64,000 nucleotides of DNA from Rhodococcus sp. OK302 (GTDB lineage Bacteria > Actinomycetota > Actinomycetes > Mycobacteriales > Mycobacteriaceae), in contig NZ_NPJZ01000001.1 of the NCBI RefSeq assembly GCF_002245895.1, forward strand, positions 4,314,501-4,378,500, read 5' to 3'. The notes beneath the pieces are model-generated. The model saw only the letters and a program-made list of their open reading frames with translations, searched no databases and was not told the origin of the DNA. The stretch's first letter is position 1; each line of letters begins with the position of its first letter. Made by a program: the position numbers and the translations under genes. Shown here piece by piece: positions 54,418-64,000 of this stretch.

Positions 54418-54425
<8 letters not shown>
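53727..54425 (-). CDS. HAD-superfamily hydrolase
   Basis: This 232-residue HAD phosphatase has the catalytic motif I in LWDMDGTLLDSEKLW, motif II in LVTNTERVLVERAL, Lys in CGDEVPAGKPAPDPYL and motif III in AIEDSPTGTASATAAG. A helical cap domain sits between motifs I and II, the beta-phosphoglucomutase/phosphoglycolate type. The substrate is not predictable. The ATG overlaps the stop of metH by 8 nt, so the two are translationally coupled. M. tuberculosis has a similar gene next to metH as far as I recall. Confidence 0.92.
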
Positions 54426-57987
<3,562 letters not shown>

Positions 57988-58038
57988 GCCGTCCAGAGTA
58001 GTGGGCGTACCGACATGCTCTGGCCGTAGGCTAGGTGG

Positions 58039-58986
58039 GTGAGTCCAAGTGAGTTCCCCGTCACTCCCGACGGCCCGGTCGATTTCGACGATTCCGCGGC
58101 CTTCGAGAGTCCTGATCGCCCTGAGGGCGACATCCCCGTGCTGCGCGATCCCATTCTTGTTGCGGCATTCGAAGGCTGGAACGACGCCGGTGACGCCGCC
58201 AGTGGTGCGGTCGAGCACCTCGGACTGATCTGGGACGCGCAACCGCTGGCCGAGCTCGATTCCGAGGACTACTACGACTACCAGGTCAACCGCCCCACGG
58301 TACGTCAGATTGACGGCGTCACCCGCGAAATCGTCTGGCCTGCTACACGTTTGTCGGTCTGCTCGCCTCCCGGCAGTCAGAGCGACATCGTTCTGCTTCA
58401 CGGCATCGAACCGAATATGCGCTGGCGAAGCTTCTGCGAGGACCTGCTCGAACTGATCGACCAGCTCAACGTCAAAACTGTCGTCATCCTCGGTGCACTA
58501 CTCGCGGACACCCCGCACACTCGGCCGGTTCCGGTCACCGGAACGGCCTACAGCAGCGAATCCGCGGCTCGATTCAACCTCGAACAAACCCGATACGAGG
58601 GCCCGACCGGAATCACCGGAGTTCTCCAGGACGAGTGCGTCCGCGCCGGTGTACCGGCCATTTCCTTCTGGGCGGCAGTGCCGCACTACGTGTCTCAGCC
58701 TCCTAACCCCAAAGCTACGGTGGCACTGCTGCAACGAGTCGAGGACGTTCTCGACATCGAGGTTCCGCTCGGCGGACTTCCGGCCCAGTCCGAGGACTGG
58801 GAGGAGGCAGTCAACGAAATGACCTCCGACGACGAAGAAATCGGCGAGTACGTCCGCACTCTCGAGGAGCGCGGCGACGCCGAAACCGACATCACGGAAG
58901 CTATCGCAAAGATCGACGGCGACGCGATCGCAGCCGAATTCGAGCGGTACCTGCGTCGACGGGGCCCGGGCAGCTTCGGGCTGTGA
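58039..58986 (+). CDS. PAC2-family protein
   Basis: This 315-residue PAC2 protein has the typical PVLVAAFEGWNDAGDAASGA-like start (here ILVAAFEGWNDAGDAASGAV), VVILGALLADTPHTRPVPVT, and PTGITGVLQDECVRAGVPAI. PAC2 proteins are proteasome-assembly-chaperone relatives; in actinobacteria their role is unknown, though a link to the Pup-proteasome has been proposed. GTG at 58039 is used. It is divergent from metH, as in M. tuberculosis Rv2125, and overlaps the next MFS gene by 4 bp. Confidence 0.9.
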   Translation: MSPSEFPVTPDGPVDFDDSAAFESPDRPEGDIPVLRDPILVAAFEGWNDAGDAASGAVEHLGLIWDAQPLAELDSEDYYDYQVNRPTVRQIDGVTREIVWPATRLSVCSPPGSQSDIVLLHGIEPNMRWRSFCEDLLELIDQLNVKTVVILGALLADTPHTRPVPVTGTAYSSESAARFNLEQTRYEGPTGITGVLQDECVRAGVPAISFWAAVPHYVSQPPNPKATVALLQRVEDVLDIEVPLGGLPAQSEDWEEAVNEMTSDDEEIGEYVRTLEERGDAETDITEAIAKIDGDAIAAEFERYLRRRGPGSFGL

Positions 58987-60155
58987 GCAAGAACACAACC
59001 AATGGCAACGCGAACCATCCCCGGTCGATCCGCCTTCGCCTGCAACTGATCGCGCTGTACGCCGGCGGGTTTCTCGGCCCGTTCGGCGGCGGCGTCGTCG
59101 TATCCACGCTCCCCGAGATCGGCGACGATCTCGGGGTCGGACCGTCAGCGGCCGCGTCGTCGCTCACCGCGTATCTGTTGCCGTTCGCGGCACTGATGTT
59201 GGTGTCGGGAACGCTCGGTTCCCGGTGGGGCAAGGTTCGGACCGTCCGCATCGCCTACGGGGTGTACGTCATCGCGTCCGTGGCATGCTTCCTTGCTCCG
59301 ACGCTGGAAATATTCCTCGCAGCCCGCGTTCTACAGGGCTCCGCAAATGCGTTCACCACTCCCCTGTTGCTCGCATCATTGGCGGCCGCCACACCGCAGG
59401 CGCGCCTCGGTCGCGCACTCGGAGCCTTCGGCGCATTTCAGGCCGCCGGCCAATCATCAGCACCGCTGATCGGCGGCTTGGCTGCCGAATTCGATTGGCG
59501 TTTGGCATTTCTCATCATCGCCGTCGTTGCCGGCCTACTCGGGGCCATCGGGTTACCGACCGCCGACAAGGCAACCGCCACCACCCCTGCACGGCTACGC
59601 GACGCTCTCCGCCCCGAAGTTCTCCGCATCGGCATCGCCGCCCTACTGGGCTGGGGCGCACTCGGCGGACTGAGCTTCCTGATCGCCTTCCGCTTCGAGG
59701 ATGAATTCGCACTCACACCGACCGTCCGAGGCCTCCTGCTGACGCTCTTCGGTCTCGCAGGCATCCTGTGCGCGCGGCCGATCGGAATATTGATCGACCG
59801 CATCGGTGCCCGATCCTCGGTGCTCATCGGTGCGATCGGCGGTTCGATCCTCGTGACCATCGTCGGGTTGGCCACCGTCATCCCTGCCATCGCGATCGCC
59901 TGGTTTGTTGCCGGCATAGCCAGCCAGTTCGTCCTCGTCGGAGTCAATGCGGCAGTACTGGGTTCACAAGGCCCCAACCGAGGCGGCGCCGTGTCTGTCG
60001 TCCAAGCAATGCGCTTCGGCGGCGCCGCGTTGGCACCCATCGCCTTGACCCCCGTCTACGACGTGTCACCCGTCGCCAGCTTCTTGATCCCCGCGGCGCT
60101 CCTTGCGCTGGTGACTCCCCTGGTGATGCCGAAACCACGCTCGAAGGCGAAATGA
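58983..60155 (+). CDS. MFS transporter
   Basis: This 390-residue transporter of the major facilitator superfamily has about 12 helices. The first helix pair (LIALYAGGFLGPFGGGVVVS, TLPEIGDDLGVGPSAAASSL), motif-A-like loop GSRWGKVRTVRIAYG and LAARVLQGSANAFTTPLLLA resemble drug/sugar efflux carriers of the DHA1 group. The substrate is unknown. GTG at 58983 overlaps the TGA of the PAC2 gene (GTGA), so translation is coupled. Confidence 0.88.
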   Translation: MSKNTTNGNANHPRSIRLRLQLIALYAGGFLGPFGGGVVVSTLPEIGDDLGVGPSAAASSLTAYLLPFAALMLVSGTLGSRWGKVRTVRIAYGVYVIASVACFLAPTLEIFLAARVLQGSANAFTTPLLLASLAAATPQARLGRALGAFGAFQAAGQSSAPLIGGLAAEFDWRLAFLIIAVVAGLLGAIGLPTADKATATTPARLRDALRPEVLRIGIAALLGWGALGGLSFLIAFRFEDEFALTPTVRGLLLTLFGLAGILCARPIGILIDRIGARSSVLIGAIGGSILVTIVGLATVIPAIAIAWFVAGIASQFVLVGVNAAVLGSQGPNRGGAVSVVQAMRFGGAALAPIALTPVYDVSPVASFLIPAALLALVTPLVMPKPRSKAK

Positions 60156-60306: not shown

Positions 60307-61392
60307 ATGAGCGAAGCTGAGTCGGAACCGGAACGCCCCATCGACATTTTTCGTCGATCCGTCGAGATCATCGAAGAAAACTTGCCCGCCACCTGGTCTT
60401 TGTCCACGAAGCGCTCCCCCGACCTCTCCGAAGCGCCCCTTCGTCTCGATCTCCGCTCCCCAGACGGCTCGGTCGCACAGTTCGGCGTCTACGCCGCACA
60501 CGGAGTCCTGAGCAGCGACGTTCCCGGAATCGCCGACCGCTTCCCCGCCGGCCAGTCCGGCTTCGTCTGCGCCAAATACCTGTCCGAACCCGTGCGCCGC
60601 CAACTCGACGCCCACGCTCTCTCCTACGCCGATGCCACCGGAAACGTCTCCCTGACGGCCGACCGTCCCGCAGTGTGGGTGCGCGGCCGGGGCGCCGACG
60701 CAGATCCGTGGCGCGGCCCCGGCCGTCCGTCGGGCCAGCTCAGCGGCGATCCGTCGGCTCGCGTCGTACGAGCCCTGGCCGATTTCGCCCCACCGTTGGC
60801 GATCACTGCCCTGGTGCGCTTGGCCGGCGCGTCGACCGGCGCAACATATCGAGTTGCGCAGACACTGGCAGATCGTGAATTGGTGACCAGACTCCCCCGC
60901 GGCGGAATCGCTGACGTCAACTGGCCGAAAATGCTGCGTGCGTGGGCTCAGGAATCGGTAGCCAAAGCTCCCACACCCCACGGCTTTCATGCCCCCGACG
61001 GCCTCGAGGCTCTCTTCGGGCAACTACGCCAACTCAGTGGACACATCTATGCCGGCACCGCGTCGGTCGCCGCCGCACCCTTCGCACGGTACGCACCCAC
61101 ACAGCGCGCGCATTTTCACGCGGACAACGTCGACCAATTTGCCGACGCTCTGGGCCTGCGACGCGTCGAGAGTGGCGCCGACGTCTGGGTCACCGCTCCG
61201 CTCTCTCCATCGGTGTTCGACAGAATCCTCACCCGGGACGGCATCCGGATCGTCGCACCGAGCCAGGCGTACGCCGACCTCCTCGCGGGCCCGGATGCCA
61301 ACGAAGAGGCTGCCGAGTACCTGTTGTCCTGGATGATTGCCAACGAATCGCAGTGGCGACGCGCCGCCTCCCCTGCTACGGACAGACCGTAG
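60307..61392 (+). CDS. winged-helix protein of unknown role beside the Wadjet genes
   Basis: This encodes 361 residues. Residues about 145-200 (ARVVRALADFAPPLAITALV, RLAGASTGATYRVAQTLADR, LVTRLPRGGI) read as a winged helix with a wing-like basic hairpin. Residues about 80-125 (FVCAKYLSEPVRRQLDAHAL, SYADATGNVSLTADRPAVWV) resemble the start of AbiEi-type antitoxins. The rest is unassigned. It ends 33 bp before the DUF2397 gene on the same strand, so it is probably in that operon and may regulate it. An inverted repeat ATCTGT...ACAGAT (60264-60289) lies just upstream. The ATG has no strong site. Confidence 0.7.
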   Translation: MSEAESEPERPIDIFRRSVEIIEENLPATWSLSTKRSPDLSEAPLRLDLRSPDGSVAQFGVYAAHGVLSSDVPGIADRFPAGQSGFVCAKYLSEPVRRQLDAHALSYADATGNVSLTADRPAVWVRGRGADADPWRGPGRPSGQLSGDPSARVVRALADFAPPLAITALVRLAGASTGATYRVAQTLADRELVTRLPRGGIADVNWPKMLRAWAQESVAKAPTPHGFHAPDGLEALFGQLRQLSGHIYAGTASVAAAPFARYAPTQRAHFHADNVDQFADALGLRRVESGADVWVTAPLSPSVFDRILTRDGIRIVAPSQAYADLLAGPDANEEAAEYLLSWMIANESQWRRAASPATDRP

Positions 61393-61425: not shown

Positions 61426-62949
61426 ATGGTGAACGAAACGCCTACTCGTGATGCAACAGCGTCGACACGTGCACCGGCGTACGCCGATACAAACCGATTG
61501 AAACTGTTTTCGTTCACCGTCGCGGAGAAGCGGGCGGAGTACCTCTGGGTGCTTCGGGCTTTCGACCACGCGCGTGCCAACTACACCGTCCTGCTCCATT
61601 CCGGGACTGTGGCGCAGATTCTCGAGAAGATCGGCGGCGGGGATCCCGCCGCACAGTTGTCGTCGGCCGAGGTCGCTCCACTGTTGGATCAGCTGCACGT
61701 GTGGGAAATCCTCGAACGCAGCTACGACGGCACCCGCGCCGCGTCGCTGGCCGAGTACCGCAACCGGCATTTCGTTTACCAGTTCGGCCAGGCCGGCTAC
61801 CAGGTGTATCGATCCGTCGAAGACGTCCTGGCTGCCCGCCTCGACAATTCGTCGCTGTCACGATTGGCGCTGGCCGATCTGCTCGCCGACATGTCGGAAT
61901 TGGCCGAGGCCAATCGGACGTCGGACGGCGACCTCATCTTCCGCAAATTGAAGCGCCTGGACTCGACGCTGTCCGACATGGCCGATCGCGCTGCACACTT
62001 CTATCTGACGCTCGGCGATCTTGTCCGAACCACCGAAGTCACGCCGCAGGCGTTCTTGAGTCACAAGGACGCGCTGTTGACGCACATGCGCGAGTTCAGC
62101 TCTGACCTTGCGCGTTATGCACCCAAGCTCAAAGAAGCGATCGAGCATGTCGAGTCGACCGGTGTCGATCGGATGATCCGCCTCGCGGCGGCCAGTGACG
62201 AGCGGGTGTTCGTTCCGATGGCCGAACGCGAAGACGACTGGATGGCCCGCTGGCGCGGTTTGACCGCGTGGTTCGTATCAGCTGAATCGGGGATCAGCGA
62301 GTCGGAGCGTCTGCGCGAAGGAACCATGAGCGCCATCGCCGCAGTCCTCGCATTGTTGCGCCGGGTGACGGAAACCCGCAAAGGCGGGGTCAGTCGCGAA
62401 AGCCAGTTACGCCATCTTGCAGGGTGGTTCGCGGCGACGCCGTCGGAGGATGCTGCTCACGCGCTCTTCCAGGCGGTGTTCGATCTCGGACGTCCCCGGC
62501 ATCTGTCGATGGTGCATCCGGATGCCGACATCATCTCGCACAACCGTTCCTGGTGGGACGCGCCGCCGGTCGAGATTGCCCGCACTCTCGCCGAAACGGG
62601 CCGTCCGCCGTCACCGGGCCTGCCCGGCAAGGTCGCGCGCAACGACGGCAGTATCCGTCGACTCCGCGAAGAGCAGTTGGCTACCCAGCGAACCCGCAGT
62701 GCCGCAGCACAATCGCTGGCATCGAACGGCGTCTACGAACGTGAACTCAACGAGCAGGAGACCGAAGTTTTGCTGAGTCTGCTCAACGCAGCACTGACAG
62801 CCCGCGTGCCCGTCGTCGGCCGCGTCAAGAGTTCCACCGGCAGCGAGAACGGGGTCAAGCTGACGCTGAGCCCCTCCGATGGTTCCACCACCATCAAGAC
62901 TGCCCGCGGACGCATGCACCTCGACGGCATCGAGGTCAGCGTCCGATGA
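61426..62949 (+). CDS. jetA: DUF2397 / TIGR02677 protein, Wadjet type II JetA-like
   Basis: This encodes 507 residues. RLKLFSFTVAEKRAEYLWVL, RAFDHARANYTVLLHSGTVA and LSSAEVAPLLDQLHVWEIL are the conserved N-terminal pattern of DUF2397/TIGR02677. The C-terminal half (RHLAGWFAATPSEDAAHALF, GRPRHLSMVHPDADIISHNR) is also typical. In Wadjet anti-plasmid systems JetA is the kleisin part of an SMC-like complex that extrudes and cleaves small circular DNA; in type II systems it carries this domain. The next gene is the matching DUF2398 partner, overlapping by ATGA. The identification rests on recognised family pattern, not on a search. Confidence 0.82.
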   Translation: MVNETPTRDATASTRAPAYADTNRLKLFSFTVAEKRAEYLWVLRAFDHARANYTVLLHSGTVAQILEKIGGGDPAAQLSSAEVAPLLDQLHVWEILERSYDGTRAASLAEYRNRHFVYQFGQAGYQVYRSVEDVLAARLDNSSLSRLALADLLADMSELAEANRTSDGDLIFRKLKRLDSTLSDMADRAAHFYLTLGDLVRTTEVTPQAFLSHKDALLTHMREFSSDLARYAPKLKEAIEHVESTGVDRMIRLAAASDERVFVPMAEREDDWMARWRGLTAWFVSAESGISESERLREGTMSAIAAVLALLRRVTETRKGGVSRESQLRHLAGWFAATPSEDAAHALFQAVFDLGRPRHLSMVHPDADIISHNRSWWDAPPVEIARTLAETGRPPSPGLPGKVARNDGSIRRLREEQLATQRTRSAAAQSLASNGVYERELNEQETEVLLSLLNAALTARVPVVGRVKSSTGSENGVKLTLSPSDGSTTIKTARGRMHLDGIEVSVR

Positions 62950-64000
62950 GAGCTCGCGAGATCACTCCCCTGGCCCTCGATTCGTATCAGCGTGCGGCGC
63001 GAATCATCCTGTCCAATCACTTGGTCACCACGTCGTATCCGGATCGCGCGGCGTTGCCACTCCTGCGTCGGTGGGCTACCGAACTGCGCGACGACCTCCT
63101 CGAACTGTTCGGCTACCGCCTCGAAGTCACCGAGACGACGGCCCGGTTGTTCACGGTCTCGGACCGCCTCAACCCGTCGGCACCCGCTCGCACCGCGACC
63201 GAGCGCACGTTCGACCGCACCCGGTACTCGTACCTGGCACTGTGCCTGGCTGCTCTCGGCCGCGCCGGCAACCAGATCACGTTGTCGGAGTTGGCCGATC
63301 ACGTTGCCGCCGATGCCGCTCAGGTGGACGGCGTCGAATTGTCCACCGATCGGGCGTCGGACCGAGACGCGTTTGTCGACGCGGTCGGCTGGCTCGGTGT
63401 TCGCGGCGCCATCGCTCTCGCCGACGGCGACGCCAATGGCTGGGCGTCCAATCCCGAAGCGGGAGAGGCTCTTTACGACATCGACCGATCCGTCGTCGTT
63501 GCGCTGTTCCGCCCACCCCGCGCCCTGCAGCACCTGCATTCCATTCGAGGTCTTCTCGCCGCCGAGACATCCACGGCATCCGAAGAAGACGGAGTTCCCG
63601 TGGACGCCAAGGAGATCGGGCGACGGGTACGTCGGGCGCTCGTCGAACGGCCCGTCGTGCTGGCCGGCGAACTCGACGAACATGAACTGATCGCGCTCGC
63701 CCAGCCCAAAACCGCTGTGGAAGTAGAACTGCTGACCGGACTGATCGCCGAGCGTCGGGCCGAGGGTATCGCGATGATCGATCCCACCGGACGTTTGTCG
63801 GACGTGCGCTTTCCCAGCACCGGCACCATCGCTCAGGTCGCGTTACTGTTGGCGGGCGAAATTTCCGATCGAATTCTCGACGTCGACGCCCCGGAACTGG
63901 CGAAGCTTCCCATCCCCCATGAATCCGATGAGTACCTGATCGAACAACTCGATGCAGCGATCCCTGAAGCCGGAATCTTCGAAGACCTCGCCGACGAAGA
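62946..64000 (+). CDS. jetB: DUF2398 / TIGR02678 protein, Wadjet type II JetB-like, 3-prime end beyond window
   Basis: The visible 351 residues begin MRAREITPLALDSYQRAARI, then ALPLLRRWATELRDDLLELF, GYRLEVTETTARLFTVSDR, and TFDRTRYSYLALCLAALGRA, which is the DUF2398/TIGR02678 signature (RRY..LCL.LA.L). JetB is the KITE-like winged-helix partner of the SMC complex. The ATG at 62946-62948 overlaps the TGA of the preceding gene, showing translational coupling. The gene runs off the right edge. The SMC-type jetC and nuclease jetD should follow if the system is complete. Confidence 0.82.
   Translation, partial: MRAREITPLALDSYQRAARIILSNHLVTTSYPDRAALPLLRRWATELRDDLLELFGYRLEVTETTARLFTVSDRLNPSAPARTATERTFDRTRYSYLALCLAALGRAGNQITLSELADHVAADAAQVDGVELSTDRASDRDAFVDAVGWLGVRGAIALADGDANGWASNPEAGEALYDIDRSVVVALFRPPRALQHLHSIRGLLAAETSTASEEDGVPVDAKEIGRRVRRALVERPVVLAGELDEHELIALAQPKTAVEVELLTGLIAERRAEGIAMIDPTGRLSDVRFPSTGTIAQVALLLAGEISDRILDVDAPELAKLPIPHESDEYLIEQLDAAIPEAGIFEDLADE

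Follow-up and report, generated by a model that had tools for sequence, protein, structure and literature searches.

A stretch of 64,000 nucleotides from Rhodococcus sp. OK302 (the window; contig NZ_NPJZ01000001.1, positions 4,314,501 to 4,378,500, here also G000:C1:4314501-4378500; the genome comprises 2 contigs and 6,790,176 bases) ends on the right in the first genes of a type II Wadjet locus. In Wadjet systems, JetABC is an ATP-driven SMC (structural maintenance of chromosomes) complex that gives the specificity for circular DNA, while JetD cuts it (PMC10586767, PMC10123090). We found that jetA, jetB and jetC are retained in OK302 and that jetD is missing. The explanation we favour is that JetD was probably lost from this type II complex, with JetABC retained as an SMC machine without a nuclease.

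The complete jetA gene (61426-62949, + strand) encodes a 507-aa protein of the DUF2397 (TIGR02677) family, with 461 bits against PF09660 (cut-off 28.5), 245 bits against TIGR02677 (cut-off 165.85) and 615 bits against PADLOC JetA2. By its relation to Wadjet, JetA is presumably the kleisin-like subunit; chain E, "JetA", of PDB 9qe0 is matched by a 12-row JetA profile (E 1e-26). The jetB gene (DUF2398, TIGR02678; 476 aa, + strand) begins at 62946 and is cut by the window edge at 64000, with 351 visible codons that score 202 bits against PF09661. In the extended stretch, whose L002 coordinates equal the window coordinates minus 57500, jetB ends at 64376 (L002:5446-6876) and as a whole scores 219 bits against PF09661, 131 bits against TIGR02678 (cut-off 124.65) and 718.5 bits against JetB2. 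Outside the window follows jetC (extended 64373-68560, L002:6873-11060, + strand), which encodes an SMC-type protein of 1395 aa with 1430 bits against PADLOC JetC2, 721 bits against TIGR02680 and 72 bits against SbcC_Walker_B, the SbcC-type Walker B standing at its end. Its motifs GPNGSGKT, LSGGE and LLALDEA, which we take to be the patterns of Walker A, signature and Walker B, are all intact. The three proteins match their families nearly end to end, with scores far beyond chance. Because jetA and jetB, and likewise jetB and jetC, overlap by 4 bases, the three genes presumably form one operon. An earlier note on this DNA had read the two visible genes as DUF2397/TIGR02677 and DUF2398/TIGR02678 and had expected an SMC/SbcC-like ATPase next downstream, and these matches bear out all three assignments.

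The same note had expected a DUF2399 nuclease gene downstream as well, making up the four-gene, plasmid-cleaving set of Wadjet type II. JetD (DUF2399/TIGR02679) was found neither at the locus nor elsewhere in the 6.79 Mb genome, so this four-gene set is not present; the note had itself named a missing ATPase and a missing nuclease as signs against its reading, and the second of these is what we see. PF09664, TIGR02679, an 11-row JetD profile and PADLOC JetD2 (PDLC00557) all gave 0 matches in the genome. The PF09664 search gave no match in its control genomes either and alone would not show absence; the TIGR02679, JetD-profile and JetD2 searches do detect JetD in other genomes. The JetD_C domain of types I and III (PF09983) had no match in the genome of OK302. 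The locus thus has the JetA, JetB and JetC of Wadjet type II and, with three conserved subunits and no nuclease, the make-up of MksBEF.

JetABC without JetD is a pattern of the family and not the oddity of one genome. Within the genus, JetA was found in 26 of 28 genomes (all except G011 and the 75% complete G008) and type II JetD in 2 of 28 (G006, G020). Among 151 relatives, JetA occurs in 48 genomes of the family, 5 of which also have JetD (G006, G020, G068, G081, G090), as against 12 of the 14 JetA genomes in the rest of the order, where the exceptions are G114, with a JetA fragment, and G140 (Fisher p 2e-7 for family against rest of order, a descriptive value since the genomes are related). 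A draw of 396 genomes from the phylum, in which JetA matches had to cover 60% or more of the model (G287, G325, G327, G392 and G528 were dropped), gave a TIGR02679 match in 24 of 27 JetA genomes outside the family (all but G341, G468 and G477) and in none of the 3 family members with JetA. The PADLOC JetD2 search returned the same five family genomes as strong matches. In two genomes without a JetA match, G077 and G082, it gave weak and partial matches. In G090, JetD accompanies a second, divergent locus (L094), and the main-lineage locus of that genome (L095) has no JetD beside it. The divergent locus (G090:C1:8335844-8350453) lies close to one end of a contig of 8.35 Mb and carries jetD before jetA, not after jetC.

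At the level of loci, 141 were fetched, 118 of them distinct by JetA, and the main lineage comprises 67 loci without JetD, 26 with it and 10 cut by a contig end. Named genomes contributed 80 loci, taken from 265 confirmed relatives, with titles from Rhodococcus, Rhodococcoides, Prescottella, Antrihabitans and Nocardia; here JetD was sought in the fetched stretch. It was found in 22, not found in 49 and left undecided by a contig end in 9, and the JetD-less state occurs in loci of Rhodococcus, Prescottella, Antrihabitans and Nocardia. The nearest relative of the OK302 locus among these 80 is that of Rhodococcus sp. IEGM 1379 (98% in JetA), which very probably places OK302 close to R. erythropolis.

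The chromosomal position of the locus tends to be the same with and without the nuclease: 22 of 26 JetD-bearing and 51 of 67 JetD-less distinct loci stand beside the PAC2-family gene and/or mshC, and both neighbours lie in the fetched stretch of 20 and 19 loci, respectively. Measured from the coding part of jetC to that of mshC, with stop codons included, the gap is 1230-1291 bp in 22 loci with JetD, which occupies it, and 13-70 bp in 19 of the 32 measurable loci without it. In the other 13 of the 32, OK302 included, the distance is 508-4166 bp, and these longer gaps hold other genes in the loci inspected. In OK302, 298 bp with a hairpin separate jetC from an Rv2466c-like gene and a DJ-1/PfpI gene, followed by a sortase-domain gene on the opposite strand and an mshC/cysS-like synthetase. 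Several of the short gaps contain an inverted repeat. The two states also meet in sister pairs, for example L140 with JetD against L055 without (gap 70 bp), and L122 with JetD against L121 without (gap 61 bp).

From the 80 named loci, 15 whose JetC was truncated by a contig end, split or incomplete in its best domain were left out, and 13 of the 61 further loci were added, which gave a JetC tree of 78 rows. Twenty of the 22 named loci with JetD fall into one clade of this tree, together with the JetD-less row L121; L140 (R. tibetensis) and L177 (Rhodococcus sp. SMB37) stand outside it. The tree requires at least 7 changes of the JetD state, and with losses only it requires 17, or 14 when seven long-branch rows are left out. 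Two rows (L161, L079) were labelled JetD-less in this tree though their contigs end 733 and 571 bp past jetC; the genomes G022 and G054 are not among the TIGR02679 or PADLOC JetD2 matches. The main groups of the JetC tree, namely the clades of 8 and 12 rows and the pairing of L140 with L051, reappear in a JetD tree of 26 rows. Within the 12-row clade the details differ, and the long rows L177 and L083 are joined differently; judged from the sequences, JetD may have been replaced locally.

Divergent JetABC loci (n = 15) form a separate set: JetD is present in 8, 2 are cut by contig ends, and in the remaining 5 (L078, L082, L088 and L091 in G053, G067, G076 and G085, and L103 in G140) the fetched stretch contains no JetD. 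JetABC may thus lack the nuclease in several lineages.

The motor genes have remained intact where the nuclease is missing. In 66 of the 67 main-lineage loci without JetD, one uninterrupted frame encodes JetC, and Walker A, signature and Walker B are all present in those 66 as well as in 26 of 26 JetC proteins from loci with JetD, the variant LLGLDEA being counted as Walker B. In L119, the one exception, and in L066 (R. jostii NBRC 16295 and G023, respectively), jetC is split into two frames, by a real break or an assembly error. Selection was assessed by the median pairwise Nei-Gojobori ratio of nonsynonymous to synonymous substitution rates (dN/dS), with frames trimmed to guide proteins and pairs outside dS 0.05-1.5 dropped, which occurred in the second JetD-bearing clade only. 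In the clade of OK302 the medians are 0.033 for JetA, 0.069 for JetB, 0.052 for JetC, 0.047 for mshC and 0.011 for PAC2. The other JetD-less clades gave 0.055, 0.100 and 0.095 for JetA, JetB and JetC in the opacus clade (mshC 0.077), 0.084, 0.176 and 0.123 in the Prescottella clade (PAC2 0.087), and 0.107, 0.141 and 0.118 in the Nocardia clade (PAC2 0.043). In the two clades with JetD the corresponding values are 0.048/0.056 for JetA, 0.095/0.103 for JetB and 0.063/0.076 for JetC, next to 0.105/0.131 for JetD itself and 0.042/0.056 for mshC. All six clades thus show strong purifying constraint on JetABC. It matches that of the clades with JetD in the clade of OK302 and is weaker in the Nocardia and Prescottella clades.

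Because this constraint is long-term, JetABC presumably does something useful. With the nuclease missing here and in many relatives and the motor genes intact, it is suggested that a plasmid-destroying machine has been kept for another, non-cutting job. The best reading, drawn by analogy, is that a vertically kept JetABC would, like MksBEF in the proposal for that complex, still act on DNA and would not serve as a plasmid-cleaving Wadjet. Without JetD, the complex would presumably load on DNA, hydrolyse ATP, extrude loops and move or compact DNA, and it could not cut. The benefit for which it is retained would most likely lie in organising or segregating the chromosome or large replicons, or in controlling their copy number, beside the ordinary Smc-ScpAB (ScpA is present in the genome). 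A wider proposal, which we hold more tentatively and at a little under even chances, is that, across the Rhodococcus-Nocardia family, type II Wadjet has given rise several times in parallel to a lasting SMC complex without a nuclease, with JetD lost many times and JetABC strongly constrained, and that many of the systems called "Wadjet" in Rhodococcus do not cleave plasmids.

Several observations weigh against the favoured explanation. The JetC tree is a quick tree in which 7 or 8 rows have long branches; JetD may have been regained as well as lost, and the number of losses depends on the model. The JetD-less Nocardia and Prescottella clades have higher JetC dN/dS (0.118, 0.123) than the clades with JetD. 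In three sister triples (with JetD, without JetD, outgroup), JetC has 147 changes on the JetD-less side and 106 on the other (binomial p 0.012), while JetB has 65 against 47 (p 0.11) and JetA 30 against 31. Some relaxation or change of role of JetABC is therefore possible on these sequence comparisons, and JetC may be slightly relaxed or adapting, with no such sign in JetA. In addition, the type I/III JetD_C domain (PF09983) matches 7 of the 28 genus genomes. In G006 the match is a weak cross-match at its type II JetD; in the others (G001, G002, G018, G023, G024, G026) it lies elsewhere in the genome. These 6 are among the 24 genus genomes that have JetA and lack type II JetD.

The last of these observations leads to an unlikely alternative, in which JetABC would still restrict plasmids with a nuclease borrowed in trans, which could be a type I/III JetD or a host nuclease of general function that attacks the plasmid once it is extruded. 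It finds further support in the MksG of C. glutamicum, which reportedly cleaves DNA in vitro without MksBEF (PMC10123090). Against it, searches of the other 18 of these 24 genomes, OK302 included, yielded neither a type II nor a type I/III JetD, no family takes the place of JetD in the flanks described below, and R. erythropolis NI86/21 reportedly harbours a circular plasmid of 5.9 kb (PMC12915292). We regard it as similarly improbable that JetABC limits plasmids without cutting them, through compaction, lower copy number or segregation. Such an activity would keep the ancestral target and explain the conserved motor subunits, and the intact ATPase motifs would fit an active motor. However, deletion of mksG in C. 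glutamicum reportedly affects a plasmid as deletion of mksB or mksF does (PMC10123090), which argues that the motor alone is insufficient, at least in that species.

That the locus is a decaying relic, with JetD gone first and JetABC to follow, seems quite improbable. It would fit the 2 genus genomes without a JetA match, the split JetC frame of L119 and the mild excess of JetC changes on JetD-less branches, but JetC is kept as one frame with its motifs in nearly all JetD-less loci, the medians for JetA, JetB and JetC range from 0.033 to 0.176 across the four JetD-less clades, JetA and JetC in the clade of OK302 lie near the mshC value, and JetA is nearly universal in the genus. Least probable of all, and only barely worth entertaining, is a type II JetD that is present but too diverged or split for detection. 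JetD does evolve faster than most of JetABC (0.105/0.131 against 0.048-0.103 in the clades that have it), and the JetD rows of L177 and L083 are on long branches; yet several models were used, the positives in the order and the phylum show that the searches reach diverged JetD, the short gaps before mshC leave no room for the gene there, and in OK302 the Rv2466c-like and DJ-1 genes stand behind jetC.

A replacement nuclease beside jetABC was rejected as a candidate. The flanks of the 80 named loci were clustered into 35 clusters with at least 3 members, one of which is JetD itself, and among them no family stands consistently in the place of JetD beside jetABC across clades. Nine clusters were scanned by one representative each, together with one further frame, and the rest were judged by place and spread. 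None of these 10 scanned proteins is a nuclease; they comprise a DUF2127 membrane protein, a chitinase-like protein, Nramp, MspA, a nitrite-reductase-like protein and five without Pfam match. Among the divergent loci, the 567-aa gene behind jetC in L078 encodes an AMP-binding enzyme. In L103 (G140), which lies outside the family, a 418-aa gene behind jetC encodes a protein that combines DUF222 with an HNH endonuclease domain, and in this one locus it may be a stand-in nuclease.

Upstream of jetA, the gene at 60307-61392 (+ strand) encodes a 361-aa protein with an IclR-type helix-turn-helix (HTH) domain (PF09339, 22.6 bits, a borderline match at a cut-off of 22), for which NCBIfam and PADLOC scans gave no match. 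It ends 33 bp before jetA. Of 26 genus loci, 22 have a homologue upstream of jetA, in one case an 80-aa fragment only, and the homologue directly adjoins jetA in the clade of OK302 and in L072, L081 and L090 of another genus. The protein is possibly a co-transcribed regulator and is treated here as a candidate. In opacus-type loci a 387-aa gene (L049:6520-7680) lies between the HTH gene and jetA; its product has no Pfam or NCBIfam match and a weak PADLOC match to PD-T4-6 (E 5.5e-4). The promoter scan at the locus gave a single match, on the - strand and at chance level. Behind jetC, a terminator scan found none on the + strand, and the hairpin does not stand out, since 25 of 200 shuffled versions of the stretch fold equally well (z -1.2).

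The left-hand neighbours are a PAC2-family gene (58039-58986, + strand; PF09754, 228 bits), which belongs to the context and is not a component, an MFS gene (58983-60155) and a metH frame (54418-58401, - strand). Of the conserved block of metH, PAC2 and MFS described in the earlier note, PAC2 and MFS are confirmed by Pfam, while metH was recognised by eye only. The PAC2 gene is on the same side of the jet locus in many relatives. The suggestion that the site is a defence hotspot was rejected, as JetA is present in most genus genomes at a locus that tends to keep its place by PAC2 and mshC, and the neighbours in the part of the flanks that was scanned are mainly metabolic, transport or envelope genes or have no assigned function.

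The origin of a genome-organising SMC complex such as MksBEF from a defence system by nuclease loss is an idea still open in the field (PMC10586767). Here, sister species with and without JetD, which share the same chromosomal locus and are cultured, would make the step from defence to organiser directly testable. If the proposal is true, the family is a natural replicated series from a plasmid-destroying defence SMC to a condensin that organises the chromosome or other replicons. Defence tables that count JetABC as "Wadjet II" may also include systems unable to cut plasmids. For example, R. erythropolis NI86/21 is listed with a "Wadjet_II" of three proteins (Table 4 of PMC12915292), and the available text of that paper does not remark on a missing nuclease. 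In another survey, 73% of 97 Rhodococcus genomes have Wadjet, a restriction-modification system and one of two further systems (PMC10482375). Among the top-ranked titles and abstracts of open literature listed on the subject, none concerned JetD-less type II systems in this family, which does not establish novelty.

Compared with known systems, the complex of OK302 shares with Wadjet type II (JetA2-JetB2-JetC2-JetD2; DUF2397/DUF2398/TIGR02680/DUF2399) the families, gene order and overlapping genes of JetABC, and solved relatives are named JetA and JetC in PDB 9qe0/9qe1; the defining nuclease JetD is what sets it apart from that type. It differs from MksBEF, which we take to be in another lineage than type II, in its type II protein families, and a role on the chromosome is a prediction here. 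Wadjet-type SMC complexes acting on plasmids are known from actinobacteria as EptABCD of Mycobacterium smegmatis and MksBEFG of Corynebacterium glutamicum (PMC10586767, PMC10123090); unlike JetABC of OK302, both have a fourth subunit, which in C. glutamicum is MksG, a protein of the DUF3322/DUF2220 kind, and the nuclease there binds the kleisin subunit (PMC10123090). PF09983 has matches in C. glutamicum. Closer relatives in Rhodococcoides (for example L122, L141) and R. tibetensis (L140), with JetA 73-76% identical, have the same PAC2-mshC locus and keep JetD between jetC and mshC, whereas OK302 does not. The MksBEF of P. aeruginosa likewise consists of three subunits without a nuclease, and the origin proposed for it, from a JetABCD system by loss of JetD, corresponds to the state seen here (PMC10586767).

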